Shown here one piece after another: positions 27,677-56,607 of a stretch of 64,000 bases of DNA (position 1 is the first letter of the stretch; the number at the start of each line of letters is the position of its first letter). The position numbers were made by a program, and so were the translations under genes. The stretch comes from Acidobacteriaceae bacterium (GTDB taxonomy: Bacteria > Acidobacteriota > Terriglobia > Terriglobales > Acidobacteriaceae). Where the stretch lies: the NCBI GenBank assembly GCA_025462885.1, contig JAOAPN010000013.1, positions 310,001 to 374,000 of the forward strand, given 5' to 3'. The notes below the pieces were generated by a model. It saw only the letters and a list, made by a program, of their open reading frames with translations, ran no database searches and was not told the DNA's origin.

Positions 27677-27718
27677 GTGCGGCAGTTCCTCGTTCCTCAT
27701 GGTTACGTCCGAACGGAG

Positions 27719-28864: not shown

Positions 28865-28891
28865 CGTCATTCCCCTCGCGCGGCTGTGAGC

Positions 28892-30436: not shown

Positions 30437-30585
30437 AGCAATCGAGTCCACTCCGGAAATTGCAGGTCCATTGACGTCCTACGATAGTCTGTGCCGGGAA
30501 TGGATCCGCCATCGGACAAATGACCTGTATGGATGGCTGGATCCAAAAGTGCGATTCCGATTCCGATTCGACGACTGCCCCGAAC

Positions 30586-31734
30586 TTAAACGAAGAGCAC
30601 GCACATAGGCTTTGCAGCCGGATACGTGTGGACCGGTGCGGAGAGTCTCCCGGTCTTTCGATCGCGCTCCAGCACAGTGAGATCGTTACTGTCCTGGTGG
30701 GAGACGACCAGCCATTGGCCGGAGGGATCGAGTGCGATGTGGCGCGCATTCTTTCCACCACTCGGTGCGAGTTGCGTTTGCTGCAGAAGCCCGGTGTGGC
30801 GGTTCACGTCAAAGACCGCGATGGTATCGTCAGCGACGCGATTGCCGGCATAGACATTTCTGCCGTCGGGAGAAGCGATGATTTCGCCGACGAATGCGGT
30901 GTTCGGAGGGAAGCCGAGAGGCAGAGAAGAGACAAAGCCGAGAGAGCGCAGCGTGGCGGGATGTTCGCTCCAGGCAAGGGTCTCTACTGTGGAATCAAGC
31001 TCATTGGAGCCGTAGACGAATTTGCCCTTGGTACTCCAGGCGAGATGGCGCGGCCCGGTGCCGGGTCGCGCGGACCAGTAGGGCGGATCGGCCGGAGTCA
31101 TCTCCGCAGTGGATGAATTGAGGTGGAAGATGATGATGCGGTCGAGGCCAAGATCGTTGACGAGCACGAAGCGGCCATCCGGCGAGGTAACGGCGGAGTG
31201 AGTATGCGGTGCCTCCTGCCGCCCTTGATAGGGGCCGCTTCCAGTGAACTGAAAGTGAGAGACAACAGGCGAGAGAGACCCGTCGGCCAGCACCCGGAGC
31301 GAACTGACACTGCCGCTTCCATAGTTTGCGACCAGCACGGTGCGCCCGTCGGGTGAAACGGAGACGTGCGTGGGGCCGTCGCCTCCTGTGTCGACGAAAT
31401 TCAGAAGCTTAAGCGTCTTTTGTCCGCGAACGGTGGTGAACGCGCTGACCCGGGCCTCGGGGTGCTTGGTCTCGGTGACGGCGTACAGACACGTCTCTCC
31501 ATCAGGGCGGCGGAACTGCGCGAGGAAGGTGGGGCTCACCACTTCAGCCGCAAGCTCGATGGGGCCGATCTCTCCTGTGGTGGCATTCCAGTCGGCAGTC
31601 AGGATGCCGGTATCGTGGCCACCGGTCCCGATATACAGACGCTTCCGAGGAGTGGAGCGCATCGCGGCCGGAAGCGATCGAGCGGCGAGCAATGTTGCGG
31701 AGAGTGAGACGAGAAACTGGCGACGAGGAATCAT
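30586..31734 (-). CDS. Tat-exported lactonase, beta-propeller (YbhE/Pgl-like) 2
   Basis: The 382-residue protein opens with a twin-arginine signal (MIPRRQFLVSLSATLLAARS) and then the Pgl-like start KRLYIGTGGHDTGILTADWN. Repeats include THVSVSPDGRTVLVANYGSG, the QEAPHTHSAVTSPDGRFVLV segment strongly conserved in this lactonase family, GTGPRHLAWSTKGKFVYGSN and ARHIALDPSGQWLVVSHQDS. It is a closer match to the family than the copy at 27719. It lies just upstream of the oxidase on the same strand (149-base gap) and is divergent from the MFS transporter. An oxidase flanked by two lactonases suggests lactone formation and opening outside the cytoplasm. Confidence 0.9.
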   Translation of the reverse strand: MIPRRQFLVSLSATLLAARSLPAAMRSTPRKRLYIGTGGHDTGILTADWNATTGEIGPIELAAEVVSPTFLAQFRRPDGETCLYAVTETKHPEARVSAFTTVRGQKTLKLLNFVDTGGDGPTHVSVSPDGRTVLVANYGSGSVSSLRVLADGSLSPVVSHFQFTGSGPYQGRQEAPHTHSAVTSPDGRFVLVNDLGLDRIIIFHLNSSTAEMTPADPPYWSARPGTGPRHLAWSTKGKFVYGSNELDSTVETLAWSEHPATLRSLGFVSSLPLGFPPNTAFVGEIIASPDGRNVYAGNRVADDTIAVFDVNRHTGLLQQTQLAPSGGKNARHIALDPSGQWLVVSHQDSNDLTVLERDRKTGRLSAPVHTYPAAKPMCVLFV

Positions 31735-32038: not shown

Positions 32039-33397
32039 ATGCACGTAGAACGTACGACCCGAGTAAGACTGTTTCTTGCTTTCTGGTTATTCATTATCAG
32101 CGGAGTCGCGTTTCTTGATCGGACCAACATCTCCATCGCAGGTCTGCAGATCAGTCGGGAGTATGGACTCGGGAATCAGCGGCTTGGCTGGATCTTCTCG
32201 GCTTTTCTGATTGGCTATGCCGGCTTCCAACTGCCCGCCGGAGTGCTCGCGGCACGCTTCGGGCCACGCAAGGTGCTTGCTCTTGGAGTGGTGTGGTGGG
32301 GCATCGCAACGGCACTTACCGCGGTTCTGCCTTCGACCATCAATCATGCAGTCTTTCTTCTGATCGGAATTCGTTTCGTTCTGGGCGCGGGCGAGGCGGT
32401 GATCTATCCCGCAGCCAATCAGTTTGTGGCCTACTGGGTCCCGCAGCAGGAACGCGGCTTCGTGAACGGACTGATCTTTGCCGGAGTAGGAGCCGGGAGC
32501 GGACTCACTCCGCCTCTCCTGACGTGGCTGATCGTAGCGCATGGCTGGCGCTCTGCGTTCTGGTTCAGCGCAGTGGTCGGATCGATCGCGGGAGCAGTCT
32601 GGTGGATCTTTGCGCGGGACACTCCGGAAGAGCATCCCGGCGTTTCGCGTGCAGAGCTGAAAGAGATTCGCAATGGACTGGGTTACGCGCGCGCCACGAA
32701 GTCTTTTGTCAGGACCGAGCCGGAACGCGAGCCGATCTCCTGGAAGGCGATCTTTGCGCGCAAGGACCTCGCGGCTCTGATGGCGGGCTATTTCAGCTTC
32801 GGCTATATCGCCTGGGTCTTCTTCAGTTGGTTTTTCCTGTACATGGCTCAGGTGCGCGGGTTTGATCTAAAACAGAGCGCACGTTTCGCGATGCTTCCGT
32901 TCCTCTGCATGACTGTCTTTAGTCTGGCGGGTGGCGCGCTCTCGGATCGGCTCACGCGAACGCATGGACTCCGGGTTGGCCGGTGCTATCTGGCTTCTAT
33001 CTCATTGTTTGCGACCGCGATCTTCCTGGTGCTGGGTTCGCAGGTGCGAAGCCCCGCGCTGGCCGGCGTCATCCTGGCAGGAGGCGCTGGCGCTCTCTAC
33101 ATGTCGCAGAGTACCTTCTGGTCGGTGTCAGTCGATATCGCCGGCCGCAGTTCGGGCGTCTTCTCCTCCATGGTGAACATGGGCGGGCAGTTCGGCGGCG
33201 CGCTGACGGCGTCGCTGACCCCCTGGATCGCGCAACGGTACGGATGGACGGCATCCTTCGCCGTGGCTGCCGCAATGGCGGTCGTCGGCGCTCTCTGCTG
33301 GCTGGTCGTGCATCCCGAGCGAGCTCTTGAAGCGGACGAGCCCGAGATCGTTCCAAAGTTTGTGCTTGCTTCCAAGGATCAAAATGTGATGCCTTAA
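32039..33397 (+). CDS. MFS transporter, anion:cation symporter (sugar-acid) family
   Basis: The protein has 452 residues and 12 predicted membrane helices. The N-terminus has the family signature FLDRTNISIAGLQISREYGL and RLGWIFSAFLIGYAGFQLPA, then GARFGPRK-like loop residues (AARFGPRKVLALGVVWW) between helices 2 and 3. The second half opens with FSFGYIAWVFFSWFFLYMAQ and contains GGALSDRL. Relatives of this ACS family (ExuT, GudP, DgoT) import hexuronates, aldarates and aldonates by proton symport. It is the first gene of a ten-gene plus-strand block and abuts the histidine kinase by 5 bases. Sugar acids made by the neighbouring oxidase and lactonases are the natural candidate substrates, by inference. 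Confidence 0.9.
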   Translation: MHVERTTRVRLFLAFWLFIISGVAFLDRTNISIAGLQISREYGLGNQRLGWIFSAFLIGYAGFQLPAGVLAARFGPRKVLALGVVWWGIATALTAVLPSTINHAVFLLIGIRFVLGAGEAVIYPAANQFVAYWVPQQERGFVNGLIFAGVGAGSGLTPPLLTWLIVAHGWRSAFWFSAVVGSIAGAVWWIFARDTPEEHPGVSRAELKEIRNGLGYARATKSFVRTEPEREPISWKAIFARKDLAALMAGYFSFGYIAWVFFSWFFLYMAQVRGFDLKQSARFAMLPFLCMTVFSLAGGALSDRLTRTHGLRVGRCYLASISLFATAIFLVLGSQVRSPALAGVILAGGAGALYMSQSTFWSVSVDIAGRSSGVFSSMVNMGGQFGGALTASLTPWIAQRYGWTASFAVAAAMAVVGALCWLVVHPERALEADEPEIVPKFVLASKDQNVMP

Positions 33398-33402
33398 CGG
33401 CA

Positions 33403-34683
33403 GTGTCCTCCTATATTAAATCGCTGTTCGCGCTTCTTGTTCTGCTTGGCGGGCTGACCTGTTCCCTGGCCCGGGGGCAGGTTGCGCCATTGAATGATCC
33501 CCCCATTCCGACGGATTTCTCTGATCCGGGAACACCCACTGCGGGGCCGAGATCTTCGGCACAAGGCGCGCCGATTCCGATTCCGATTCCGACGATTCAA
33601 GGCTGGTCGTTTCGCAGCGAACTCGATCGAAACGACATGCTGCATGGCAGCGAGGTATCGCTCGACCCCGGCCACCCGGAGATCATCCTGTTCTTCGATG
33701 CGATGCCGATGGTGGATGGAAAGACCGAGTTTCGCTATCGATTGAACCCCTACGACGCAGACTGGACGCTGACGCGCGGGCGCATGGCGCATTATCGCCG
33801 GTTGCCGCCAGGACGTTACCGGTTCGAGGTGCAGGCCCGCACGGCGGGACAGCCCTGGCGCGCGCGGGAGGCGGTACTTCCGCTTCGACAGAAGCCTTTT
33901 TTCTATCAAACCTGGTACTCTTACCTGCTGGTCGGCCTGATATTGCTGGCCATTACGGCGCAGTTGCTCCACCAGCGGGACCAACTGCTCAAGGGACAGA
34001 TGGGCATGGTGCTGGAGGAGCGGAACCGGATTGCAAGTGAATGTCACGACACGTTGATGGCCGGCTTTGCGGCGATCTCCTGGCAATTGGAGGCGACCGC
34101 GAAGCTGTTCCGGAACTCCGGCGCTGGCGAGGATCCCGCAGCCCAATCCTGCGAACTCGCTCGCAGCATGGTGGCGCACTGCCAGGCGGAGGCGCGCCGC
34201 ATCATCTGGGATCTCCGTGATTCGGATGAGATTACGAACAGTCTTTCGCGCGCTCTGCTGGAGGCCACCAGCACGCACCGTCAGCGCGAAAGCCCGCAGA
34301 CTACCCTGGACATTCAAGGCAAAGAGATTCCGATATCTCCCGCTGCCGTGCATCACTTGGTGTGCATCGGGCAGGAGGCAGTCTCCAATGCGATCCGGCA
34401 TGCCGGGTCTTCCCGCATCGCGATCGAGCTGCGCTACGAGAGCGACCTGCTCCGCCTGACTGTGCGGGACGATGGCCGCGGCTTTCACGCGTCGGACCAC
34501 TCGGCACGCACGGGACATTTCGGCATCCCGGTGATGGAGGAGCGGGCCCGAAAACTGGGAGGCGCGTTGCACCTGACAAGTTCCTTGATGAACGGCACCG
34601 AGGTCGCGGTAACGGTGAGCTTTCACAAGATCCACCAGACAGGGATACAACAGCAGCACATTATGCCCTGGATCGGCGTATAG
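33403..34683 (+). CDS. Sensor histidine kinase with a lone Y_Y_Y domain, HisKA_3 type
   Basis: The frame begins at a GTG at 33403, 5 bases after the transporter stop; the ribosome-binding site is weak, so coupling to the transporter is likely. The 426-residue protein has a signal/anchor (8-25), a Pro-Ile repeat linker (PIPIPIPT, 57-64), one Y_Y_Y beta domain (about 75-165, ending LPPGRYRFEVQARTAGQPW), a transmembrane helix (172-190), the phospho-acceptor His215 in ERNRIASECHDTLMAG, and a HATPase domain with ECxN-like GQEAVSNAIRHAG and DDGRGF. Typical members carry a 600-residue periplasmic propeller ahead of Y_Y_Y; here it is missing. The partner regulator is the next gene. Confidence 0.88.
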   Translation: MSSYIKSLFALLVLLGGLTCSLARGQVAPLNDPPIPTDFSDPGTPTAGPRSSAQGAPIPIPIPTIQGWSFRSELDRNDMLHGSEVSLDPGHPEIILFFDAMPMVDGKTEFRYRLNPYDADWTLTRGRMAHYRRLPPGRYRFEVQARTAGQPWRAREAVLPLRQKPFFYQTWYSYLLVGLILLAITAQLLHQRDQLLKGQMGMVLEERNRIASECHDTLMAGFAAISWQLEATAKLFRNSGAGEDPAAQSCELARSMVAHCQAEARRIIWDLRDSDEITNSLSRALLEATSTHRQRESPQTTLDIQGKEIPISPAAVHHLVCIGQEAVSNAIRHAGSSRIAIELRYESDLLRLTVRDDGRGFHASDHSARTGHFGIPVMEERARKLGGALHLTSSLMNGTEVAVTVSFHKIHQTGIQQQHIMPWIGV

Positions 34684-34789: not shown

Positions 34790-35419
34790 ATGTTCATGAA
34801 GCAGATTCGGGTGCTGTTGATCGAAGACCACTTTCTTGCCCGCATGGCATTGCACTCCGTCTTCGCCAGCCAGCCTCAAATCGGGATCGTGGGAGAAGCC
34901 GCCGACGGAGAGCAAGGGATCGAGATGTACCGCACCCTGCTGCCGGACGTGGTTGTGCTCGACCTGCGGCTTCCGCGCGTAAGCGGGTTCGATGTCATTC
35001 GAGTGCTTCGCAAAGAGCGCCATCCTGCTCGCATCGTGGTGCTTTCAAACTACCAAGGCTCTGAAGATATCTACCGTGCCGTACAGGCCGGGGCGATGGC
35101 GTATCTGACCAAGGACGTGAGCGGCGAAGAGGTCATCAACGCCATTCAGAATGTGTACCGTCACCTCCGCTACCTGCCGAGAATCGCCCTTGATCGTCTC
35201 GCGGAACGAATGCCAGCGGTGGAACTGACGCCCCGCGAGCGCGAAGTGCTTACATGCATCACGCAAGGCCGCTCCAACCGGGAGATCGCCGACGAACTCG
35301 GAATCGCGGAGAAGACAGTGCGAATCCATGTCTCATCCATGCTGGAAAAGCTGGGCGTTCGCGACCGGACGCAAGCGACGATCTACGCACTACAGCGCGG
35401 ATTGGTGCACTTCGACTGA
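34790..35419 (+). CDS. NarL/FixJ-type response regulator
   Basis: The 209-residue protein has a receiver domain (about 4-120) with acidic pocket Glu12/Asp13, phospho-acceptor Asp58 in VVVLDLRLPRVSG and Lys108 in AYLTKDV. A LuxR-type helix-turn-helix follows (about 143-205: LTPREREVLTCITQGRSNRE, then ELGIAEKTVRIHVSSMLEKL). GGAG lies 4 bases before the ATG at 34790 and 10 before an ATG at 34796, so either start is possible. It follows its cognate kinase and precedes TonB receptor 4, so it probably controls the following catabolic genes. Its binding site is not identifiable from one locus. Confidence 0.93.
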   Translation: MFMKQIRVLLIEDHFLARMALHSVFASQPQIGIVGEAADGEQGIEMYRTLLPDVVVLDLRLPRVSGFDVIRVLRKERHPARIVVLSNYQGSEDIYRAVQAGAMAYLTKDVSGEEVINAIQNVYRHLRYLPRIALDRLAERMPAVELTPREREVLTCITQGRSNREIADELGIAEKTVRIHVSSMLEKLGVRDRTQATIYALQRGLVHFD

Positions 35420-35604: not shown

Positions 35605-38600
35605 GTGAAGAAACTTCTCATCTGCTTGACCTTGCTTGCAGCGACCCTTGCGGGACGCGCACAGGTCGCAAACAATACTGCGCTCGTCGGAACCGTCACG
35701 GATGCATCGGGTGCCGTCGTGCCTGGAGCGCAGGTCGTTGGAACCAATCGCGAAACGAAAGTGGACTACACGGGTACAACAAACGCGGAAGGCTACTACT
35801 CGATCCCGTTCGTCAGCCCCGGCATCTACGACATCTCTGTCAAGATGCCCGGCTTCCTCAAGGTCAGCACCACCGGCGTGGTCGTCACGCTGAACCTGGC
35901 GGTCCGTACCAACGCGACGCTGACAGCAGGCTCCACGAATGATGTTGTGAACGTGACCGCTGAGACTCCCGCGCTCTCGACCGACGATGCTGTGATTGGT
36001 GAAACGCTCAGCGCGAAGACGATCGAGAACCTTCCGATGAACTCACGTCGCGTCATGGAGCTTGCGGCGACGGCATCGAACATCATCGTCGGACCGAAGA
36101 CCTCCTATACCGGCGTACCTCCGGGTGCGAACTTCATCGGCGCTGGAACGCGCGAAGTGACCAACTCGCTGACGCTGGACGGTATTACGATCATGAATTC
36201 GCTGATCTCGTCGTCGCCGGTGACACCGAATCCGGATGCAGTTGCGGCTGTACAGACGCAGAACGGAAACTACACCGCGCAGTATGGCGCTTACATGGGC
36301 GTCCACATCAACGTGGATACGAAGTCGGGTACGAACAAGCTGCATGGCACCGTATATGACTATGTACAGAACGACTTCTTCAATGCGAAGCCGTTTACGT
36401 CGCTGCCGACGGCGCGTACGCCAGTCCTCCGGTTCAACCAGTTTGGTGGCGAAGTGGGCGGACCAATCGTGATCCCGCATCTCTACAATGGCCGCGACAA
36501 GGCCTTCTTCATGGGATCGTACGAAGGCACCCGCCGCATCTCGCAAGCGAACCAGACTGGACAGTTGATCACTGACGCGATGCGGACTGGAGACTTCTCG
36601 GCGCTCTGTACGACGTTCGTGGGAGGCATTTGCGCTGCCGGCGCCGGCATCCAATTGAAGAACCCCGCTACCGGCCTCAACTACGCGAATAATCAAATAA
36701 CAAACATCTCGCCGGTGGCTACCGCATTGTTGGCGTATTATCCGCATCCGAATCAAGCCGGCATCGGCACCAACTTCAATGGCCTCATCGCCAGTGTATT
36801 CAACAAGAATGCGACGCTGGATCGCATCGACTACAACATCGGCGAAAAAGTTCGCCTCTTCGCTCGCTACACGTACGAGAAGAGCAACGCGGTCAACGGT
36901 AATATCGTCGCCACTTCGCAGAGCTTCTCGCCGACGACGGACTCGAACGCCGTCATTGGCTACACACACATCATCACGCCGAACATCATCAACGATCTTC
37001 GTGTCGGCTTCAACAAGTTCCAGTCGAACCAGCTGAATTACTTCGCGCAGAGCGGACTTACGGATGCGGGCACGAAGCTTGGCATTCCTGGCTTTACCGC
37101 CGATACGACCAACGGCAACCCGGGTATCCCGACCATCGTTCTGAGTCCAAGCGCGACCGGCGGCTATCAGGGGCTTGGTGCCGAGGGAACGAACTGGTAT
37201 CAGGAAGATCGCACCCTCCACGGCTACGACCAGATCAGCTATACGAAGGGCAAGCACAACATCATGGCGGGGGTGGATATTCGCCGGATGACGATTGGAC
37301 GCGCCGCGACGAACCAGAACCGTGGCCAGTTCACCTTCACGGGCAACTACTCCGGCAACCCAGCTGCGGATTTCATCACGGGCTATTCTCAGACGATCAT
37401 TACGCCCCTGTTCCAGATCAAGGGTTCAGTCGGAGAGTGGCGCGACGGTTTCTTCGTGCAGGACAACTGGCAGGTAAGCCAGAAGCTCACGGTGCTCTAC
37501 GGCGTTCGCTATGAGCTGCCCACGGTGCCTTACAGCCTGAACGGTATCGGACGTATTCTCAACAGCGATTACACAGCACTGATCCCAACGAGCTCGGCTA
37601 CGACGGGCGCCGCTTATGTTCCGGTGAAGGGCTTCAAGTTCAACGGACCGAATCATGACCTCGTTTCGCCGCGTCTCGGCCTTGCCTATCGCGCGACTGA
37701 CAAGATCGTTGTTCGCTCGGGTGGAGGTATCTACTACAACCCGAACCATCTGAACGCCTACACGCTTGCGACCAGCAACTATCCCTTTGCGGCATCTACC
37801 ACCTACAGTGGCCCCACCAGCGGGATTGCCACGCAGAGCTTCAGCAATCCTTCTGGCGGCGGAAGCGGTTCGGTTTCTCTCCCTGCCGGTACTCCGGGCT
37901 CGTACCAGACGGCCTTCACAGATAATTACTACCTGCCAACTCCTCGCCTTTATCAGTGGAACCTGGATACGGGTGTTGAGCTGGGCCACGGAAGCGCCCT
38001 CGAATTCCAATACCTGGGTTCGCGTGCGATTCACCTCGATCACTCCCTCTATCCGAACCAGCCGCTGCCGGGTGCTGGTGCGATCAACCCGCGTCGTCCG
38101 TACCAGTTGTTCGGACAGATCCGTCAGATCCAGAACGATGGTCTCTCCACTTACCATGGCCTGACCATCGTCTATCGTCAGCGGACGTTCCATGGCCTCG
38201 ACATGAACCTTGGCTACACCTGGGCGCACACGCTGGACACATCGAACGACGCGAATGGCGGCGGTACTCCGATGATCCAGTACAACCTGAAGGCTGACTA
38301 TGGAAACGCCAACTGGGATATCCGCAACCGCTTTGTCGGTTCGGTGACCTATGCCATGCCGAGCCTCGCACGCTACGGTCACCTGACCGATACGCTTGCC
38401 GGTGGATGGCATGCCAATACGATCGTAACGCTTCAGGGCGGACAGCCGTACAACGTCGGGATCACCAACGACCAGGCGAATGTCGGCGGTATTGGCACAC
38501 AGCGTCCTAACTTTGTAAAAGCTCCCGTCTTTACGTGTGGGAAGGCGCAGTACATTGCCAAGACCTCGTGCATCGATACCACGGCTTTCTCGCTTCCGGC

Positions 38601-38904
38601 TCTGTACACGTTCGGCAACTCACATCGCAACGATCAGCGCGGGCCTGGCGCTTCGAACGTCAGCCTCTCGATCTTCAAGGACTTCGCGCTCTTCGAAAAT
38701 GTGAAGTTTCAGTTCCGCGGTGAAGCATTCAACGTCTTCAACCACGCCAACCTTGCGAACCCGGGCAACACCACGCTGCCCACGGCAAACGCTGCAGGCG
38801 TCTTCAACTTCACCGGTTCGACCTTCGGGCAGGTGACAGCGACACCGACCGGTGCTCTCGGGGATCCGCGCATCCTGCAACTGGCCGGCAAGATCAACTT
38901 CTAA
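35605..38904 (+). CDS. TonB-dependent receptor 4, Oar-like, with CarboxypepD_reg-like domain
   Basis: It begins at a GTG at 35605 with AGGAG upstream and a signal peptide (residues 1-19, ending AGRAQ). The 1,099-residue protein has the regulatory-like domain (about 22-110: NTALVGTVTDASGAVVPGAQ...GIYDISVKMPGFLKV), a plug with NLPMNSRRVMELAATASNI and MGVHINVDTKSGTNKLHGTV, and a barrel ending ILQLAGKINF. It sits between the two-component pair and the exported enzyme genes, with a strong terminator downstream. This suggests that it imports the substrate, or a product, of that enzyme set across the outer membrane. Confidence 0.93.
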   Translation: MKKLLICLTLLAATLAGRAQVANNTALVGTVTDASGAVVPGAQVVGTNRETKVDYTGTTNAEGYYSIPFVSPGIYDISVKMPGFLKVSTTGVVVTLNLAVRTNATLTAGSTNDVVNVTAETPALSTDDAVIGETLSAKTIENLPMNSRRVMELAATASNIIVGPKTSYTGVPPGANFIGAGTREVTNSLTLDGITIMNSLISSSPVTPNPDAVAAVQTQNGNYTAQYGAYMGVHINVDTKSGTNKLHGTVYDYVQNDFFNAKPFTSLPTARTPVLRFNQFGGEVGGPIVIPHLYNGRDKAFFMGSYEGTRRISQANQTGQLITDAMRTGDFSALCTTFVGGICAAGAGIQLKNPATGLNYANNQITNISPVATALLAYYPHPNQAGIGTNFNGLIASVFNKNATLDRIDYNIGEKVRLFARYTYEKSNAVNGNIVATSQSFSPTTDSNAVIGYTHIITPNIINDLRVGFNKFQSNQLNYFAQSGLTDAGTKLGIPGFTADTTNGNPGIPTIVLSPSATGGYQGLGAEGTNWYQEDRTLHGYDQISYTKGKHNIMAGVDIRRMTIGRAATNQNRGQFTFTGNYSGNPAADFITGYSQTIITPLFQIKGSVGEWRDGFFVQDNWQVSQKLTVLYGVRYELPTVPYSLNGIGRILNSDYTALIPTSSATTGAAYVPVKGFKFNGPNHDLVSPRLGLAYRATDKIVVRSGGGIYYNPNHLNAYTLATSNYPFAASTTYSGPTSGIATQSFSNPSGGGSGSVSLPAGTPGSYQTAFTDNYYLPTPRLYQWNLDTGVELGHGSALEFQYLGSRAIHLDHSLYPNQPLPGAGAINPRRPYQLFGQIRQIQNDGLSTYHGLTIVYRQRTFHGLDMNLGYTWAHTLDTSNDANGGGTPMIQYNLKADYGNANWDIRNRFVGSVTYAMPSLARYGHLTDTLAGGWHANTIVTLQGGQPYNVGITNDQANVGGIGTQRPNFVKAPVFTCGKAQYIAKTSCIDTTAFSLPALYTFGNSHRNDQRGPGASNVSLSIFKDFALFENVKFQFRGEAFNVFNHANLANPGNTTLPTANAAGVFNFTGSTFGQVTATPTGALGDPRILQLAGKINF

Positions 38905-39008: not shown

Positions 39009-39791
39009 ATGCCGTTTCATCGCAAACTGAACACTCTCTACCGCGGCTTGATCGCCAGCGCCGTGGTCCTCACCGTTGGAGCTGGACTTCTCACCTTCAA
39101 GGTCTACGCCGACACGCCTCTGACGCAGGCAGATTACGAGCGCAATCCCGGCCTGATGCTGGAGGCCTACCGTCATGTGGAAGCAGCCTCAGTCTCCGAT
39201 GCCGAGGAGCAGATCTTGCATGAGAAGCACTACATGTCGCACACGATGCAACCCATCTTTCCGACCAAGTTCGCTGGTACCGCGCTGACGGTTCTGCTGA
39301 AAAAGGAAGAGAACACCGATCCGAATGCACTCGGCGGAATGCTCTCGGCCATCGATAGCGGTGGCCCGGGCTCGGTGTACGTGATGAAGATCGAAGACGG
39401 TGCGGACATCGCCGGCATGGGCGGCTTGATGGGCACTGCGATGTTTGCCCGAGGCTTTGCCGGCGCAGTGGTGGATGGAGGCGTTCGCGATCTTCCGCAA
39501 CTCAAGCGAATCGGATTTCCGGTCTATGCAACCGGCTCTGTGCCGTCAACCTCAGTCTCGCACTACCGGTTCGCCGGGATGAATCAGACGCTTGAGGTCG
39601 GCGGCACACGTGTAGCAGCGAACGACATTATTGTGGCAGATCAGGATGGCGTCGTGGTCGTGCCACGCGCCCGCGCCGCGGAGGTCCTGATTCGGGCCCA
39701 GAAGCTCGATGACAGCGAACACAGCATGTATCCGTATATCGAAAAGTTTCATTCGATCGTGGAGGCAGTCAAGCAGTTTGGCCGCATTTAG
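39009..39791 (+). CDS. Exported RraA-family protein (HMG/CHA aldolase-like)
   Basis: The RraA fold includes class II aldolases/decarboxylases acting on 4-hydroxy-4-methyl-2-oxoglutarate and related 2-oxoacids, besides the RNase E inhibitor. This 260-residue protein has an N-terminal hydrophobic stretch (about 12-34, LIASAVVLTVGAGLLTFKVY) that looks like a signal peptide or anchor, and about 40 further residues before the core. The core has GGLMGTAMFARGFAGAVVDG and then GVRDLPQL, containing the catalytic Arg-Asp pair typical of the aldolases, plus NDIIVADQDGVVVVPRA. The extracytoplasmic location and neighbouring SelA-like and RidA genes argue for aldol cleavage of a 2-oxo acid. The substrate is unknown. 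Confidence 0.83.
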   Translation: MPFHRKLNTLYRGLIASAVVLTVGAGLLTFKVYADTPLTQADYERNPGLMLEAYRHVEAASVSDAEEQILHEKHYMSHTMQPIFPTKFAGTALTVLLKKEENTDPNALGGMLSAIDSGGPGSVYVMKIEDGADIAGMGGLMGTAMFARGFAGAVVDGGVRDLPQLKRIGFPVYATGSVPSTSVSHYRFAGMNQTLEVGGTRVAANDIIVADQDGVVVVPRARAAEVLIRAQKLDDSEHSMYPYIEKFHSIVEAVKQFGRI

Positions 39792-39958
39792 TTCCTAAGT
39801 CATCTGTCCTATCGCGGTGGGGGTCTTCTGTCTGATGACAGTTATGCTTTCCTCCAGTGATATGGTGTATCGCAACTCTGCCAAAATGCGCGGGCTATAA
39901 GCGGTTGGCTCGTCCTGCTCTTTTCTCCGGTTGCATCAAGCACCGAGGAGGTTCTTAG

Positions 39959-41257
39959 TTGGGAACATCGAACCAGTCTCAGGCCCACCTGTCGTCCCGC
40001 CGCGATTTCGTCCGACTGGCCGGTGGAGCGGCGGCCGCCCTGGGATCTGCTCCGGCGCTTGTTTCGGCTGAGACCGCTGCTGCCCCCACCACGCATCCGG
40101 GCGAGGACTACTACGAAAAGCTCGGCGTCCCAAAGATCATCAACGCCGCAGGAACCTATACGGCTCTGACTGCAGCCTGCATGCCTCCCGTCGTTCTGGC
40201 GGCCGTGCAGCAGGCAGCGCTGCATCCTGTCCGCCTCCACGACCTCCAGACCAAAGCAGGCGAGTACGTCGCCAAGCGTCTGCGGTGTGAGGGAGCGGTC
40301 ATCACCTCCGGCGCATCCGGTGCGATCAGTATCGCCACTGCGGCCTGCATGCAGCATGCGAACAACATCCGCTTTCTGGATATGCCTCAAGCCATCGACG
40401 GAAAGAAGAACCAGGTGATCGTGCAGCGCGCGCATCGCTATGGCTACGACCACGCCATGTTCCTGTGTGGAGCCCGGGTGACGGAAGTCGTCACCCGGGA
40501 CGATTACAAGCGCGCCTGCGCCGCGGGGCAGGGCATCATGACGAACTTCTTCAACGCCGCAGAAGAAGAGGACGGTCTCGCCGGAACCGCGCAGATCGGC
40601 CGTGAAGAATGGCTTCGTGTGGCACACGAACACGGCATCCCCTGCCACCTCGATGCCGCTGCGGACATGCCTCCTATCTCGAACCTCTGGAAGTACACCG
40701 GGATGGGCTTCGACCTGGTCTCATTCTCCGGTGGCAAAGGAATGCGCGGCCCGCAAAACGCCGGCCTGCTGCTCGGCAAGAAACACTTGACCGACTTGGC
40801 CGCACAAAATAATAATCCCGGCGATGGGGTTGGACGCGGCATGAAGGTGGCCAAAGAGCAGATCGTAGGAATGGTGGCTGCGGTGGACTGGGTGCTTTCG
40901 CACACGGAAGAGTCGATGCAGGGTGACTATCAAAAGCGCGTCGACGTCGTGACCCATGCGGTGAAGGGGATCCCGTCCGTCCGGACTGAGACGGTTGTGC
41001 CGAAGATCGCCAACCATGTGCCGCATCTCCTGATTCGATTCGACCCTGCCGTGACCGGTGTGACCACGGCGCAGATCGTCACCGCCCTCCGTAGCGGCCA
41101 ACCTTCGATCGAACTGAATCCCAACACCGGGCATCCGCCCAACCAGGGAATTCCGAGCGATGCGAACACGCTTGTAGTCGGTGTGTGGATGTTGCAGCCG
41201 GGCGAAGATGCTATTGTGGGTCGGCGCATCCGTGCTGCACTTACCAAACAAGTTTAG
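39959..41257 (+). CDS. Tat-exported SelA/DgaE-like PLP enzyme 2
   Basis: Translation starts at a TTG at 39959, with GAGGAGG 7 bases upstream, which is decisive because no ATG precedes the signal sequence. The 432-residue protein has a twin-arginine signal (SSRRDFVRLAGGAAAALG, 12-29). The PLP lysine is Lys260 in FSGGKGMRGPQNAG; the cofactor Asp is Asp232 in HLDAAAD. The domain order matches the SelA/DgaE group: YEKLGVPKIINAAGTYTALT near the start and a C-terminal small domain ending IVGRRIRAALTKQV. It lies between the RraA-like gene and the exported RidA. Ammonia elimination from an amino acid or amino-sugar acid is the best guess; racemisation is possible. Confidence 0.86.
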   Translation: MGTSNQSQAHLSSRRDFVRLAGGAAAALGSAPALVSAETAAAPTTHPGEDYYEKLGVPKIINAAGTYTALTAACMPPVVLAAVQQAALHPVRLHDLQTKAGEYVAKRLRCEGAVITSGASGAISIATAACMQHANNIRFLDMPQAIDGKKNQVIVQRAHRYGYDHAMFLCGARVTEVVTRDDYKRACAAGQGIMTNFFNAAEEEDGLAGTAQIGREEWLRVAHEHGIPCHLDAAADMPPISNLWKYTGMGFDLVSFSGGKGMRGPQNAGLLLGKKHLTDLAAQNNNPGDGVGRGMKVAKEQIVGMVAAVDWVLSHTEESMQGDYQKRVDVVTHAVKGIPSVRTETVVPKIANHVPHLLIRFDPAVTGVTTAQIVTALRSGQPSIELNPNTGHPPNQGIPSDANTLVVGVWMLQPGEDAIVGRRIRAALTKQV

Positions 41258-41289
41258 GCAATTCCAAGCATCACGAAAGGAACAACACG

Positions 41290-41817
41290 ATGAACAACCA
41301 GTCCCGCCGAGGCCTTCTCAAGAACGCAGCCGCCGCAGCCGTCGCCATGACCGGAGCCGCCGCCCTTACCCCCGAAGCCGAGGCGCAGGCTCCCGCCGGG
41401 ATCCGCTGGGAGAAGCGATCAGTTAAGGCTCCTCCTGCTCCAGCCGCAGGCGCAGCCCCCGCAACCCCGGCTGCACCCGCCACCGCACCGCCGAAGACCC
41501 CGATGTACAACAGCATTGTGACCTTCGGAAACCTCGTATTTCTCTCCGGGATCGGAGCCCATTTTCCTGGCACGATCGAGGAGCACACCAAGCACGTTCT
41601 GGATGAGATGGAGAGAAACCTCATCGCCGCCGGCTCCTCCATGGACAAGGTGCTGAAGGTAAACGTCTTCCTCAGCGACTTGGCAAACTATGCGCGGATG
41701 AATGCAACCTACAACGGCCGTTTTGGAAACATCCCTCCCGTGCGGACGACGATCGCAGCCGCAGGCGGTATCCCCGGAGACTCCCTGGTCGAGATCGACT
41801 GCATCGCTTCAATCTAG
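41290..41817 (+). CDS. Exported RidA-family enamine/imine deaminase
   Basis: RidA proteins hydrolyse enamine/imine intermediates released by PLP ammonia-lyases, normally in the cytoplasm. The 175-residue protein starts at the ATG at 41290 (AAAGGA upstream) with a Tat-like signal (QSRRGLLKNAAAAAVAMTGA), then an Ala/Pro linker (about 45-75), then the RidA domain (about 76-175). That domain shows YNSIVTFGNLVFLSGIGAHF, the signature Arg in PPVRTTIAAAGG and the conserved Glu in LVEIDCIASI. The gene lies 32 bases after one SelA-like gene and 67 before another. That pairing fits the known RidA partnership and is unusual in being extracytoplasmic. Confidence 0.88.
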   Translation: MNNQSRRGLLKNAAAAAVAMTGAAALTPEAEAQAPAGIRWEKRSVKAPPAPAAGAAPATPAAPATAPPKTPMYNSIVTFGNLVFLSGIGAHFPGTIEEHTKHVLDEMERNLIAAGSSMDKVLKVNVFLSDLANYARMNATYNGRFGNIPPVRTTIAAAGGIPGDSLVEIDCIASI

Positions 41818-41884
41818 TTCCTCCGCCGAGCCATTCAGCAGTAGATTTGCACCGCAGCACCATCAAGCATCCAGTGGAGAAATC

Positions 41885-43489
41885 ATGTCGCCCTTCAGCA
41901 CATCGCCTTGGTCCAGGCGTGCTTTCCTAAAGCAGTCCGGCATCTTCTCTGCAGCCACTGCGGTCGCGCCCCTTTCGGGCTCGGCCGCGGTCCTGCCCGC
42001 TGCGTCTAAAGATGGCCCGGTCAGCCACGGCACACCGGCTGACAACCTGTTCACCCAGATCGGTGTTCGGCCCATCGTGAACGCGCGTGGAACGTTCACC
42101 ATCATCTCCGGATCGCAGTCCCTGCCAGAGGTCAAGCAGGCGATGTTCGAGGCCTCGCAGCATTACGTGCAGATGGACGAGATGATGTCTGCAGTAGGCA
42201 CGGAGATCGCGAAGCACATGGGCGCTCCAAGCGCGATCGTGACCTGCGGCTGCGAGGCGGCGATTGCACTGGCGACGGTTGCCTGCACCTGCGGGATGGA
42301 TCCGGAGCTCTCACAAGTAATGCCTTACAAAAAGGTGCGCGACCAGGTCATCATTCCGAAGTACTCTCGCAACCCTTACGATTTCGGCGTCCGCATGTCC
42401 GGCCCGGAGATCGTAGAGGTTGAAAGCGCGGATGAGTTGCGCGCCAAAATGAGTGATCGTACCGCGATGATCTACATCATCTCCGGGCCGCGGGCGTTTG
42501 AAGATCCCCTCTCCATCAAGACAGTCTGCGCGATCGCGAAGGAGAAGAACATCCCGGTGTTTGTCGACGCGGCAGCCGAGGAGCCTCTCGTCCCGAACAT
42601 TCACCTGGCTGCGGGCGCAACCTTTGTCGCTTACTCAGGCGGCAAGTGTATGCGCGGCCCGCAGGCTGCAGGTGTCCTACTCGGGCCGAAAGATTTGTGC
42701 GAGGCCGCCTTCTGGAATGCCGCACCCCATCACAACTGGGGTCGCGCCCTGAAGGTCGGCAAGGAAGAAGCCATGGGCATGCTGGCTGCGGTTCGCATGT
42801 GGTACAAACGCGATCACCAAGCGGAACAGAAGCAGTGGCTGGATTGGGACAATCACATCGCCGACACCCTGAAGGGGATTCCAAGCCTGACCACGCATAT
42901 CGAGATGCTTGGCACCGACCTCTCGAACCGCGCACCCACGTTATCCATCAAGTGGGATGCCGCAAAGGTCGGCATTACCGGCACCGAGTTGGTGGCGAAG
43001 CTGGATCAGGGAACCCCACGCATCTTCGTTACCGGCGGTCAGGGAAGGCGCCCGGACAAGATGGATTCCTCCATCGGCATCATGCCGTACATGATGCAGC
43101 CCGGCGACTACAAGATCGTTGCCGATGCACTTTCACATCATCTTCGCAGCCCGGGTCACTTCGATAATCCGCCTGCTCCCTCGGGACCTGCGGCGCAACT
43201 CGCCGGCACATGGAACGTCGTCGTCACCTATCATCGCGGCGTCGGGCGTCAGCAGTTTGTACTGCAGCAGAGCGGCACGACGCTCTCCGGCGATCAGAAG
43301 GGTGCAATCTTCAACGCCAGCCTGCAAGGCAAGGTGGAGGCGGACCATATCACCCTCAGCAGCGTGATGAGAGTGCCCGGTTATCAAGTCCCGTTCAATT
43401 TCACAGGGGTCGTATCCGGACAGACCTTCTCGGGCGCAGTAAAGATGGGCGAGTATGGCGCGGCAACGTTTGTCGCGACCAAAGCATAG
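41885..43489 (+). CDS. Tat-exported SelA/DgaE-like PLP enzyme 3 with C-terminal beta domain
   Basis: The ATG at 41885 has GGAG 6 bases upstream and opens a twin-arginine signal (WSRRAFLKQSGIFSAATA). The 534-residue protein has the PLP lysine Lys254 in YSGGKCMRGPQAAG and cofactor Asp228 in VFVDAAAEEP. Residues 1-435 are the SelA/DgaE-like unit. The last 90 or so residues (from AGTWNVVVTYHRG through GVVSGQTFSGAVKMGEYGAA) add a beta-rich, lipocalin-like module that enzymes 1 and 2 lack. It may bind ligand or promote assembly. The gene sits between the exported RidA and the amidohydrolase. Catalysis is inferred from intact cofactor residues; the substrate is unknown. Confidence 0.86.
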   Translation: MSPFSTSPWSRRAFLKQSGIFSAATAVAPLSGSAAVLPAASKDGPVSHGTPADNLFTQIGVRPIVNARGTFTIISGSQSLPEVKQAMFEASQHYVQMDEMMSAVGTEIAKHMGAPSAIVTCGCEAAIALATVACTCGMDPELSQVMPYKKVRDQVIIPKYSRNPYDFGVRMSGPEIVEVESADELRAKMSDRTAMIYIISGPRAFEDPLSIKTVCAIAKEKNIPVFVDAAAEEPLVPNIHLAAGATFVAYSGGKCMRGPQAAGVLLGPKDLCEAAFWNAAPHHNWGRALKVGKEEAMGMLAAVRMWYKRDHQAEQKQWLDWDNHIADTLKGIPSLTTHIEMLGTDLSNRAPTLSIKWDAAKVGITGTELVAKLDQGTPRIFVTGGQGRRPDKMDSSIGIMPYMMQPGDYKIVADALSHHLRSPGHFDNPPAPSGPAAQLAGTWNVVVTYHRGVGRQQFVLQQSGTTLSGDQKGAIFNASLQGKVEADHITLSSVMRVPGYQVPFNFTGVVSGQTFSGAVKMGEYGAATFVATKA

Positions 43490-43557
43490 AGCATCAGACT
43501 TCGCATTGAGCAGTTTAGAGGGACGTACCTGAGCAACACATTCACAAGGGGTATTTC

Positions 43558-44955
43558 ATGATCGTTCGACAATTCAGTTCTTTGCTTCTCAGCTGTGTCC
43601 TCGCTTCCACCTTTGCGGGTGCACAGGCTCGTCCCACCCCGATGCCTCCCAATCCGCTGGCCTACGATCTTTTGCTGACCAACGGGCATGTGCTGGACGA
43701 TAAGAACAAGATCGATGCCATGCGCGATGTCGGGATCAAGGACGGCAAGATCGCCGCAGTCGGAGAGCATCTCAATCCCAAGGACGCCCTCAAGACCGTC
43801 GACGTCAAGGGAATGTACGTGACGCCGGGCCTGATCGATATTCACGTCCACGTCTATGCGGGCACAGGAGAAAAGGGCTCCTACGCAGGCGATCTGTCCG
43901 TCTACCCCGACGGCTTTACGTTTCGGAACGGCGTGACCACGGTCGTGGACGCGGGCAGCTCGGGCTGGCGAAGCTTTGACGACTTCAAAGATCGCGTCAT
44001 CGATCGCAGCAAGACGCGCGTCCTCGCCGAATTGAATATCGTCGGAGCGGGCATGCGCGGTGAAAAGTATGAAGACAACCTCGACGATATGGACGGCAAG
44101 CTTACCGGCGACAAGGCGAAGCAGTTCCCAGGAGTCATCGTGGGCATCAAGAGCGCGCACTTCACCGGACCGGAGTGGAAGCCCTACGATCAGGCGGTGA
44201 TCGCCGGCAACATCGCGAACGTCCCAGTGATGATCGACTACGGCGCCCGTCGATCAGAGCGCCCTCTCCTCGAACTGGTCTCGACCCACCTGCGTCCCGG
44301 CGACATCTACACGCACTGCTTCTCTGGTCTCCGCGGAGAGCAGAACCCTGAAACGGGTCTCGCTTCGGAAGCGCTCCTGGTAATGAAGCGGCGCGGCATC
44401 TACTGCGATGTAGGTCACGGCGGCGGAAGCTTCTCGTGGACCGTTGCAGGACCGATCGTCAAGGCTGGCTATCTGCCCGACTCCATCTCGACCGATCTGC
44501 ACGTAGGCTCGATGAACAACGGAATGAAGGACGTTCTGAACGTGGCAGACAAGATGATGGTCCTCGGAGAGACCCTTCAACAGGTGATCGCGCAGATGAC
44601 CTGGCATCCCGCACACGAGATGAAGCAGGAGCAGCTCGGACATCTTTCAGTCGGAGCAATCGCCGATGTCGCCGTCCTGTCGGTCGAAAAGGGCAACTTC
44701 GGTTTCGTGGATATGTACAACACGAAGCGGATGGGCACGAGCAAGCTCGACTGCCAGTTGACACTGAAAGACGGCAAGGTCGTCTACGACCTGAATGGCA
44801 TCTCGTCAGACAAATGGGATGCGACCCAACACTCTGCGGATTCGAGCCAGGCACGCCGCTGGACGACCTTCAACGAGCGGCCGATCGAGGCAAGCCACGG
44901 AAAGTTTCCCGTCTCCGTCCCGGCCGGACAAGTCACGCCAGCTCCAAAGCCTTGA
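43558..44955 (+). CDS. Secreted amidohydrolase/deacetylase-family metallohydrolase
   Basis: It belongs to the amidohydrolase superfamily branch of Atu3266/EF_0837, which removes acetyl groups from N-acetyl amino acids or related esters and is often encoded beside DgaE-like PLP enzymes. The 465-residue protein has a Sec signal (1-22, ending FAGAQA). Metal-site motifs are HVHVYAG (His96, His98), the bridging-lysine region VGIKSAHFTG, THCFSG and the catalytic Asp in STDLHVGS. The position where I expect a metal-binding His in cytoplasmic relatives reads VPVMIDYGARR, with Asp instead. AAGGGG precedes the ATG. It follows SelA-like enzyme 3, repeating the EF_0837/EF_0838 pairing but in exported form. 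Confidence 0.88.
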   Translation: MIVRQFSSLLLSCVLASTFAGAQARPTPMPPNPLAYDLLLTNGHVLDDKNKIDAMRDVGIKDGKIAAVGEHLNPKDALKTVDVKGMYVTPGLIDIHVHVYAGTGEKGSYAGDLSVYPDGFTFRNGVTTVVDAGSSGWRSFDDFKDRVIDRSKTRVLAELNIVGAGMRGEKYEDNLDDMDGKLTGDKAKQFPGVIVGIKSAHFTGPEWKPYDQAVIAGNIANVPVMIDYGARRSERPLLELVSTHLRPGDIYTHCFSGLRGEQNPETGLASEALLVMKRRGIYCDVGHGGGSFSWTVAGPIVKAGYLPDSISTDLHVGSMNNGMKDVLNVADKMMVLGETLQQVIAQMTWHPAHEMKQEQLGHLSVGAIADVAVLSVEKGNFGFVDMYNTKRMGTSKLDCQLTLKDGKVVYDLNGISSDKWDATQHSADSSQARRWTTFNERPIEASHGKFPVSVPAGQVTPAPKP

Positions 44956-45000
44956 AGTCTATGCCCGCGTCTTTGCTTCGACGGGATAGGAGAGGTCCGT

Positions 45001-45759
45001 ATGTCGGCAGCATCCATGTCGCTCTGCAGCAGAGTGCTCGCGATCCTTGTTTTCAGCTCTGTTGGCAGAGCACAGGAGCCGCCGAAAACCTACGCCTGCA
45101 TCAAGGCGAAGAAGCCCGTACACATCGATGGAAAGCTTAATGATCCCGCGTGGAAGTTGGCGCCCTGGACGACCGACTTCGTCGACATCGAGGGCGCCGT
45201 GAAGCCCTTGCCCCGGTTCCGTACCCGAGCCAAGATTCTCTGGGATGAAAACTATCTCTACATAGCCGCAGAGCTGGAGGAGCCAGAGGTAAAAGCCACG
45301 CTAACCCAGCACGATGCGGTGATCTTTCACGATAACGACTTCGAGGTGTTTCTAAAGCCACCAGGTGACGCGCCGGGGTACTTCGAGTTTGAGATCAATG
45401 CACTGAATACAAGCTGGGACCTGTATCTCAATAAGCCCTATCGCGAGGGCGGAAAAGCAGACAACAGTTGGGACATTCCGGGCCTGAAGACAGCGGTCAA
45501 AGTTCAAGGCACTCTCAACCGCGCAGGCGATACCGACCGGGGTTGGACGGTCGAGATGGCTCTCCCGTGGAGCGCGTTTGCGTCACGGCTTCCTGTCGAA
45601 GCTCCCCACGTCGGAAGCGAGTGGCGCATCAACTTCAGTCGCGTGGAATGGAAACAAGGGCAGCCCAAAGAAGACAACTGGGTCTGGTCGCCGCAAGGCC
45701 TGGTCAACATGCACGTCCCCGACCGATGGGGCTATCTACGCTTCGTCGGCAAGCCCTGA
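45001..45759 (+). CDS. Secreted carbohydrate-binding family 9-like protein
   Basis: The 252-residue protein has a signal peptide (1-25, ending SSVGRAQ) and then a single CBM9-like beta-sandwich: VHIDGKLNDPAWKLAPWTTD, AKILWDENYLYIAAELEEPE, FHDNDFEVFLKPPGD and EMALPWSAF. The C-terminal WVWSPQGLVNMHVPDRWGYL is typical of these stand-alone modules in Acidobacteria and Bacteroidetes. AGGAGAGG precedes the ATG. It is 45 bases after the amidohydrolase and is the last gene of the plus-strand block. Binding of a glycan or sugar-containing ligand is likely; no catalytic residues are apparent. Confidence 0.85.
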   Translation: MSAASMSLCSRVLAILVFSSVGRAQEPPKTYACIKAKKPVHIDGKLNDPAWKLAPWTTDFVDIEGAVKPLPRFRTRAKILWDENYLYIAAELEEPEVKATLTQHDAVIFHDNDFEVFLKPPGDAPGYFEFEINALNTSWDLYLNKPYREGGKADNSWDIPGLKTAVKVQGTLNRAGDTDRGWTVEMALPWSAFASRLPVEAPHVGSEWRINFSRVEWKQGQPKEDNWVWSPQGLVNMHVPDRWGYLRFVGKP

Positions 45760-55526: not shown

Positions 55527-55544
55527 GGAACGACTAACCATGAG

Positions 55545-55579
55545 CGGCGCGTTCCTCAAACTTCCAGAGGAACGCGCCG
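55545..55579 (+). terminator. Terminator after TonB receptor 5
   Basis: CGGCGCGTTCCTC and GAGGAACGCGCCG form a perfect 13-bp stem with a 9-base loop, followed by TTTGTTTG on the plus strand. Confidence 0.9.
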
Positions 55580-55615
55580 TTTGTTTGTGCGTAACATGTT
55601 GAAAAAGGAGTTCGG

Positions 55616-56572: not shown

Positions 56573-56607
56573 ACACGCCGTTGCACCTTCACCATGAGAC
56601 GAGTTCA

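Follow-up and report, generated by a model that had tools for sequence, protein, structure and literature searches.

Introduction

Elimination reactions of the amino-acid type, which involve a reactive enamine, are usually regarded as cytoplasmic. The ong pathway of Pseudoalteromonas for oxidized chitin is described as cytoplasmic and as involving a D-aminoacylase-type deacetylase (OngB), a D-amino-acid-deaminase-type enzyme and a RidA gene that is essential for growth on N-acetylglucosaminic acid (GlcNAc1A) and whose role is given as unknown (PMC9537276). For DGL, an enzyme dependent on pyridoxal phosphate (PLP), the published account names His162 and His163 as strictly conserved, with His163 as the proton donor, and docks the substrate phosphate near Arg301, Arg332 and Arg346 (PMC9529869). 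Cap15 is reported to use O2 on a β-hydroxy-α-amino acid, and PvdN is named alongside it as a PLP enzyme (PMC7497351). NagOx is reported to be highly active on N-acetylglucosamine (GlcNAc) and N-acetylgalactosamine (GalNAc), oxidizing C1 to the lactone by means of a bicovalently bound flavin adenine dinucleotide (FAD), with Leu251 as a key residue (PMC9299179, PMC9850908), and its discovery paper calls for more study of the role of the enzyme in its hosts (PMC9299179). Here we describe five consecutive genes at 39009–44955 of a 64,000-nucleotide stretch (the window; G000:C6:310001-374000) of a 5.26 Mb Acidobacteriaceae genome, which encode an RraA-like protein, two DgaE/SelA-like PLP enzymes (DgaE1 and DgaE2), a RidA protein and an amidohydrolase of the deacetylase type.

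These genes very probably form an exported and conserved module. Judged from sequence, there is about an even chance that they belong to an island for the catabolism of N-acetylated amino sugars, controlled by a two-component system, in which deamination would take place outside the cytoplasm. No exported DgaE/RidA/RraA pathway was among the literature matches listed, which covered openly licensed papers and left most subscription papers outside, and for none of the exported enzymes is an activity measurement known to us. Positions below are window numbering; G and L numbers denote genomes and relatives' loci, respectively.

A gene set with export signals

The preliminary description had placed five enzymes in a row here, each with an N-terminus of the Sec, twin-arginine translocation (Tat) or signal-like kind. 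Their order and positions are confirmed, as follows.

39009–39791, + strand: RraA-like protein with a Sec-like signal, the proposed aldolase for a 2-oxo-3-deoxy acid (PF03737, 118.6 bits)
39959–41257, + strand: DgaE1, an exported DgaE/SelA-like PLP enzyme with a TTG start and a Tat signal (TIGR01437, 166.9 bits)
41290–41817, + strand: RidA with a Tat signal (PF01042, 71.8 bits; TIGR01409 Tat-signal domain, 22.8 bits, cut-off 16.7)
41885–43489, + strand: DgaE2, an exported DgaE-like PLP enzyme that carries an additional β-rich domain at its C-terminus (TIGR01437, 161.7 bits)
43558–44955, + strand: COG3964/PRK09237 amidohydrolase (deacetylase) with a Sec-like signal and Asp at the β5 metal-ligand position (PRK09237, 400.4 bits, cut-off 371)

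The genes are spaced by about 30–170 bases on one strand, and a purine-rich, ribosome-binding-like stretch, read by eye, lies within the 20 bases 5′ of every signal-bearing start; the TTG start of DgaE1 is preceded by GAGGAGG. RidA starts at 41290, and 41885 is the most likely start of DgaE2.

Signals were called by a rule set of our own (not SignalP), anchored on the N-terminal extension, with its own thresholds and with controls; the counts include the window protein and close relatives, which are not independent of one another. A Tat-type signal was found in DgaE1 (27/27), RidA (37/37), DgaE2 (50/50, one further row being a fragment) and DgaE3, a third DgaE-like enzyme of the window (7/7). 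All 27 RraA rows were positive, 10 scoring as Tat and 17 as Sec (one fragment was set aside), as were 33 of 35 deacetylase rows, both misses looking Sec-like by eye. Two of the 36 comparison proteins scored positive, namely one cytoplasmic DgaE (a false call) and one Klebsiella lactonase that looks exported. The export signals claimed for all five enzymes are thus seen in nearly all relatives tested. A first, looser script gave 22/28 for RraA, 25/27 for DgaE1, 37/37 for RidA, 41/51 for DgaE2, 28/35 for the deacetylase and 4/7 for DgaE3; it was replaced because in some proteins, the window DgaE1 among them, it chose a hydrophobic segment within the body of the enzyme.

The twin arginine is invariant in a 14-row DgaE2 alignment and present in 19/19 exported RidA rows, and is absent from both rhizobial RidA proteins. 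TIGR01409 was not among the families listed (up to 25) for the 14 DgaE2 rows; the Tat assignment of DgaE2 rests on the invariant twin arginine and the hydrophobic stretch. Among 45 further acidobacterial DgaE-like rows, which overlap the other sets, five received no Tat call: three look cytoplasmic or unclear (L068, L069 and L070), the start of L076 is uncertain and L084 is Tat-like by eye. The proteins of L068 and L070 begin at the enzyme domain without a signal, so cytoplasmic members exist within the acidobacterial phylum.

Conservation and co-occurrence

A search for the gene set in relatives, proposed in the preliminary description, found it conserved in Acidobacteriaceae and in alphaproteobacterial bins. 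The survey covered 46 DgaE2 anchors in 46 loci, picked by their DgaE2 match alone, with a radius of 8 kb; among its misses are short contigs, as well as three orphan paralogues, each from a genome that has a further anchor on the list. Around the 36 anchors of at least 50% identity lay RidA in 30 cases, the deacetylase in 26, RraA in 23 and DgaE1 in 21, together with a histidine kinase (21), a response regulator (19), a TonB receptor (17), a carrier of the major facilitator superfamily (MFS; 17) and an FAD oxidase (11). The ten distant, acidobacterial anchors of 40–50% identity had the deacetylase in six cases, RidA in four and RraA in two; L108, L112, L113 and L116, which belong to this group, had no RidA, deacetylase or RraA within 8 kb. 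The orphan exported DgaE2 paralogues (L049:1765-3444, L062:9364-11004 and L063:9391-11040) had none of the listed partners within the same radius.

The recurring order is histidine kinase, response regulator, TonB receptor, RraA, DgaE1, RidA, DgaE2, deacetylase. Plasmid pACIX902 of Granulicella tundricola MP5ACTX9 bears the same genes, publicly annotated in the order MFS, sensor kinase, regulator, carboxypeptidase-regulatory-like protein, RraA, aminotransferase V, RidA, PLP transferase, amidohydrolase/deacetylase, lactonase and berberine-bridge-enzyme (BBE) protein. In the alphaproteobacterial bins (L038–L043 and L047) an exported DgaE2–deacetylase unit is found, with RidA in all except L047, and their DgaE2 rows nest inside the acidobacterial DgaE2 clade of the tree, which suggests lateral transfer. 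L041 adds a mandelate-racemase-type enzyme, a glucose–methanol–choline (GMC) oxidoreductase and a pyrroloquinoline quinone (PQQ) dehydrogenase with a cytochrome domain, and in several other alphaproteobacterial clusters proteins with similar N-termini come next.

Related arrangements were seen elsewhere. In L054 and L104, DgaE3 is flanked by a RidA gene and by another deacetylase gene; this second exported cassette (RidA2–DgaE3–deacetylase2; L054:13361-16862 and L104:2281-5743) lies near the main cluster. L067:10512-18210 carries an SMP-30 lactonase, cytochrome c, RraA, PQQ dehydrogenase, RidA, a DgaE3-like enzyme and a sugar-acid-type MFS carrier, and L067:2945-4237, adjoining a DgaE-like gene, encodes a protein of 430 residues in which three stretches match PF01042 (RidA). 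The RraA gene at L050:14529-15313 is split over two overlapping frames, by a frameshift or a sequencing error.

Co-occurrence was counted in 150 genomes of the family, with the unrelated gene for a phosphatidylinositol-specific phospholipase C (PI-PLC) from the same window as a control. DgaE-like genes were carried by 38 genomes, RraA-like by 38, the deacetylase by 25, the oxidase by 16, an α-L-fucosidase by 11 and the control by 22. A DgaE-like gene accompanied RraA in 36/38 carriers, the deacetylase in 25/25, the oxidase in 15/16, the fucosidase in 11/11 and the control in 14/22. Hypergeometric p-values ignore kinship, and because the unrelated PI-PLC also reaches p ~4e-5, the contrast in overlap was used instead: the Jaccard index with DgaE-like genes reaches 0.90 for RraA and 0.66 for the deacetylase, compared with 0.30 for the control; with the two rarer genes, the oxidase (0.38) and the fucosidase (0.29), it is not clearly different from the control. 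As exceptions, G036 and G073 have RraA only and G020 and G101 have DgaE without RraA; in G098, from the genus of the window itself, the DgaE-like, RraA, deacetylase and oxidase genes are all absent and the control gene is present. In its own genome, the window holds the only PF03737 gene found, the only gene above the PRK09237 cut-off and all three DgaE-like genes found; RidA-family genes number eight. The window further holds a group of TonB receptor, metallophosphatase and Ca-dependent PI-PLC-type genes (52089–57750) whose order is kept in L045.

Active-site residues

Residues were counted in 85 exported-branch rows aligned with DGL and its relatives; close kin are included, and L035 and L048 are one contig. 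Numbering is that given for DGL (PMC9529869). The equivalents of the PLP-binding Lys213 and of Asp189 are kept in 85/85 rows, in agreement with the earlier claim of intact PLP lysines. His162 and His163 are each found in 0/85; in cytoplasmic DgaE sequences, His163 is present in 6/6 and His162 in 5/6. With His163 absent throughout, release of the enamine, and hence a use for RidA, is to be expected. Two rhizobial cytoplasmic DgaE rows with RidA neighbours retain both histidines, so that the loss of histidine does not by itself explain RidA, and the hypothesis of an exclusive pairing of RidA with DgaE lacking the histidines was dropped.

Of the three arginines near the docked phosphate, Arg332 is kept in 1/85 exported-branch rows (two gaps), Arg346 in 0/85 and Arg301 in 22/85, and none is present in the window DgaE1, DgaE2 or DgaE3. 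Cytoplasmic DgaE keeps Arg301 in 6/6 and Arg332 and Arg346 in 5/5 each (the DGL sequence used ends at 330), and the rhizobial rows fed by an ATP-binding cassette (ABC) transporter have lost Arg346 alone (2/2). The loss of Arg332 and Arg346 would allow an unphosphorylated substrate. Position 113 is Arg in more than 90% of exported rows.

In the tree, the exported DgaE-like rows stand apart from the DGL-like rows, with a long-branch warning. Group counts from the tree were not used, as the crude twin-arginine labels behind them had erroneously put Aminobacter and C. difficile in the exported group and L058, a truncated row, in the cytoplasmic one. Beside DgaE2 the tree places two signal-less proteins from rhizobia (L123:7932-9527 and L124:8010-9560, on plasmids of Rhizobium gallicum and Sinorhizobium terangae); one of the genes is near phosphoenolpyruvate mutase and the other near PhnF, and the two may possibly represent a biosynthetic branch. 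In a second family membership test, separate from TIGR01437, DgaE1, DgaE2 and DgaE3 scored 117.7, 136.3 and 99.3 bits. The DgaE2 model has a mean predicted local distance difference test score (pLDDT) of 64.3, and its nearest folds are Cap15 (8T7J) and DGL (7LC0), each with a template-modelling (TM) score, by target, of 0.69; the two are about equally near to the window enzymes in sequence as well (25–27% identity each). The model predicts the extra C-terminal domain at about residues 455–554 (numbering of window:41825-43486), where it is β-rich.

In the deacetylase, the β5 position, which in the amidohydrolase superfamily we take to be a metal-binding His, is Asp in the window and in 34/34 relatives, and His in 6/6 cytoplasmic sequences; the other five metal-ligand positions (HxH, Lys, β6 His and Asp) are kept in 34/34 relatives and 6/6 cytoplasmic sequences. 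Its structure model (mean pLDDT 46.8) was unusable. RidA has the Arg (PPVRTT) and Glu (VEID) that are presumably catalytic, as had been claimed, and both are kept in 36/36 relatives; at 65.5 bits it does not reach the TIGR00004 detoxifying-hydrolase cut-off of 106.25. RraA has the Arg-Asp motif, presumably the catalytic motif of RraA-fold aldolases of the 4-hydroxy-4-methyl-2-oxoglutarate/4-carboxy-4-hydroxy-2-oxoadipate (HMG/CHA) type, in the window and in 26/26 rows with letters there (one gap), and stays under the aldolase equivalog cut-offs (94.7 versus 179 bits for PRK09262; 81.7 versus 304.5 for ligK).

Probable entry oxidase and neighbouring genes

The window also holds the following features.

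35605–38904, + strand: TonB-dependent receptor 4 (carboxypeptidase-regulatory-like) with a Sec-like N-terminus (signal rule positive)
34790–35419, + strand: LuxR-type response regulator (PF00072, PF00196)
33403–34683, + strand: sensor histidine kinase (Y_Y_Y / HisKA_3)
32039–33397, + strand: MFS carrier of the sugar-acid type, nearest to the D-galactonate transporter subfamily (TIGR00893, 223.3 bits, under its 395 cut-off)
30586–31734, − strand: seven-bladed lactonase with a Tat-like signal (PF10282, 310 bits; signal rule positive)
28892–30451, − strand: FAD/BBE oxidase without a signal, 50% identical to N-acetyl-D-hexosamine oxidase (7ZZK)
27719–28870, − strand: second seven-bladed lactonase-like protein with a Tat-like signal (PF10282, 87 bits; signal rule positive)
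26630–27700, − strand: family-less protein with a Sec-like signal, adjoining the oxidase and lactonases (signal rule positive)
20991–22622, − strand: α-L-fucosidase adjoining DgaE3 (PF01120, 212 bits; signal rule negative, N-terminus hydrophobic)
19390–20823, − strand: DgaE3, the third exported DgaE-like enzyme (TIGR01437, 137.9 bits)
45001–45759: gene with a CBM9 domain match, the sixth of the interval 39009–45759

DgaE3 was missed in the preliminary description, as was the oxidase with its lactonases, and from its sequence the oxidase is the likely entry enzyme. Its best solved relative is 7ZZK (NagOx) at 555 bits (50% identity over 499 columns), the next scoring 266 bits. Twelve of 16 checked residues are retained (His64, Cys123, Tyr66, Tyr137, Leu139, Tyr345, Asp383, Gln410, Gln412, Tyr414, Tyr459 and Tyr462), including both flavin-linking residues, His64 and Cys123; among 11 relatives, Cys123 and Tyr462 are found in 11/11 and His64 in 10/11 (one row is truncated). 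The four changes are Ser122 to Thr, Leu251 to Phe, Val334 to Gly and Gln381 to Ala. In five relatives (L034, L044, L050, L051 and L053) the oxidase, a lactonase-type gene and RidA or DgaE2 are immediate neighbours. PQQ dehydrogenases lie near the module in L041, L067 and L109, so that in other lineages a periplasmic oxidation step by such an enzyme may be available.

Lactonases, a sugar oxidase or PQQ dehydrogenase, fucosidase, glycoside hydrolase family 35 (GH35) and sugar-acid MFS genes are repeatedly found nearby, in one or several loci. A search for a hexosaminidase source found a single GH20 gene, in another part of the genome. On the opposite strand, just past the set, is a gene for an M28 peptidase. 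The CBM9 gene, present in 0/46 relatives' loci, stands outside the conserved set. The protein at 26630–27700 had no Pfam, NCBIfam or PDB match; a related gene occurs in L054.

Proposed route

The route set out here draws its substrate, its reactions, their order and their location from homology. The starting compound would be an N-acetylhexosamine, either GlcNAc or GalNAc, which a fucosylated glycan might supply. The NagOx-like oxidase, or in other lineages perhaps a PQQ dehydrogenase, would oxidize its C1 to give the lactone, which an exported lactonase would open to the N-acetylhexosaminate. The exported COG3964 amidohydrolase would then take off acetate, leaving the free 2-amino-3-hydroxy aldonic acids that we take as the substrate of the module. 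From these unphosphorylated acids, exported DgaE1 and DgaE2 would eliminate water, and RidA would hydrolyse the resulting enamine/imine to ammonia and a 2-oxo-3-deoxy acid. This acid might be split by RraA into pyruvate plus an aldehyde, or else be taken up through the MFS carrier. The feeding role given earlier to TonB receptor 4 and the draining role given to the MFS carrier are conjectural; either gene lies near 17 of the 36 close anchors.

Hexosaminates are, by a small balance of probability, the substrate. The amino acids and amino-sugar acids proposed earlier are narrowed to N-acetylhexosaminic acids because an oxidase homologue and lactonases lie in the window, and beside the set in some relatives; generic amino acids are disfavoured. 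The claim that the steps run in series outside the cytoplasm holds in part: the signals, the conserved set and the logic of deacetylase, ammonia lyase, RidA and aldolase favour it, and the oxidase, which shows no export signal in 13/13 rows (12 genes, one split), weakens a wholly external route. Cleavage to pyruvate outside the cytoplasm is possible, although we lean against it. A complete oxidative route lying outside the cytoplasm and converting N-acetylhexosamines into pyruvate, acetate and ammonia, with Tat-exported PLP lyases, RidA, an RraA-fold aldolase and an Asp-for-His deacetylase, and with the oxidase as a Tat hitch-hiker of the adjacent lactonase, is rather unlikely as a whole; that the oxidase leaves the cytoplasm bound to this Tat lactonase is conjecture.

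Several observations weigh against the proposed route. The missing signal of the oxidase is the main difficulty for a wholly external version; in the window some 9 kb also separate this enzyme from the set, only 11/36 close DgaE2 genes have it inside the 8-kb radius, and in G066 it is present with no DgaE-like, RraA or deacetylase genes. Its positions 381 and 334 are changed in the window and in all 11 aligned relatives, and position 251, Phe in the window, is I, F, L or M in 9/11 relatives and N in two. The TIGR01437 scores of DgaE1 and DgaE2 are far under the equivalog cut-off of 385.3 bits, Arg301 survives in part of the exported branch, and a rhizobial DgaE that keeps both histidines nevertheless adjoins RidA. 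The alphaproteobacterial clusters have no oxidase, RraA or DgaE1 within 8 kb. The β5 Asp of the deacetylase could mean changed chemistry, the characterized relatives of its family known to us act best on acetyl-mandelate esters, and activity of RraA on 2-oxo-3-deoxy acids is hypothetical.

If the route is correct, soil Acidobacteriota would deaminate amino sugars outside the inner membrane, RidA would have an extracytoplasmic role and the N-acetylhexosamine oxidases, whose function their discovery paper leaves open, would gain a physiological home. The route makes specific and cheap predictions enzyme by enzyme.

Alternative explanations

The same exported module might act on N-acyl D-β-hydroxy amino acids or on small peptide or peptidoglycan fragments. 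The deacetylase–RidA–DgaE operon of Aminobacter, with its ABC transporter and substrate-binding protein and no sugar PTS (phosphotransferase system), points in this direction, as does the M28 peptidase gene, and Ornelas et al. are said to have found in 2013 that a relative of the deacetylase is weakly active on N-acetyl-D-serine. The recurrence of lactonases, sugar-oxidizing enzymes, fucosidase, GH35 and sugar-acid carriers nearby, and the DgaE-like genes in 15 of the 16 oxidase-bearing genomes, make such substrates quite unlikely. The fate of the 2-oxo-3-deoxy acid is a separate matter: RraA might do another task, such as decarboxylation or isomerization, the acid being imported by the MFS carrier and degraded in the cytoplasm. 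The carrier is nearest to the galactonate-transporter kind and lies near 17/36 anchors, RraA scores far under the aldolase equivalogs, and the alphaproteobacterial clusters have no RraA gene in the 8-kb radius; the 36 genomes that share RraA-like and DgaE-like genes and the fully kept Arg-Asp motif nonetheless leave this somewhat unlikely.

DgaE1, DgaE2 or both could be O2-using PLP enzymes like Cap15, performing oxidative decarboxylation of a β-hydroxy amino acid, rather than ammonia lyases. Cap15 is as near as DGL in sequence and in model fold, the DGL histidine pair is lost in the exported branch, and PvdN is a Tat-exported protein. RidA near DgaE2 in 30 of 36 cases suits an enamine/imine product, however, and the cytoplasmic kin adjoin 2-keto-3-deoxyphosphogluconate (KDGP) aldolases, so that we consider an oxygenase improbable. 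That the N-termini are mis-called or unused, and the enzymes belong to an ordinary cytoplasmic catabolic operon, would fit the signal-less oxidase and gains a little from the simplicity of the rule set, which is not SignalP; against an invariant twin arginine in DgaE2 and in exported RidA, absent from both rhizobial RidA proteins, and against ribosome-binding-like stretches ahead of the signal-bearing starts, it is very improbable indeed.

Comparison with known systems

The window oxidase resembles NagOx of Ralstonia solanacearum (7ZZK) in its overall sequence, its bicovalent FAD residues and most of the checked positions. We know of no RidA or deacetylase partner for Cap15. The latter (8T7J; PMC7497351) shares with the DgaE-like enzymes a fold family and, as described, a β-hydroxy-α-amino acid substrate; it is itself biosynthetic and O2-dependent. 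The ong pathway, as reported, has in common with the proposed route a TonB receptor, deacetylation of GlcNAc1A, deamination to 2-keto-3-deoxygluconate (KDG) and a RidA gene; unlike it, the window deacetylase and PLP enzymes match other families and bear export signals.

DGL (7LC0; PMC9529869) is like the window enzymes in its fold, in PLP Lys213 and Asp189 and in operon logic, with deacetylase, ammonia lyase and aldolase in related operons. It is described as PTS-fed and as acting on a phosphorylated substrate inside the cell, whereas the window enzymes carry export signals, lack Arg332/Arg346 and His162/His163, and are about 27% identical to it. The combination of deacetylase, DgaE, RidA and aldolase suggested in the preliminary description has cytoplasmic counterparts: plasmid operons of Priestia, Bartonella, Klebsiella and C. 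difficile hold a deacetylase, DgaE and KDGP aldolase, to which that of Klebsiella adds a Sec-type lactonase. On plasmid pSR1 of Aminobacter sp. SR38, which differs in having ABC uptake, no signals seen and the histidine pair kept, the deacetylase, RidA and DgaE-like genes likewise lie close together.

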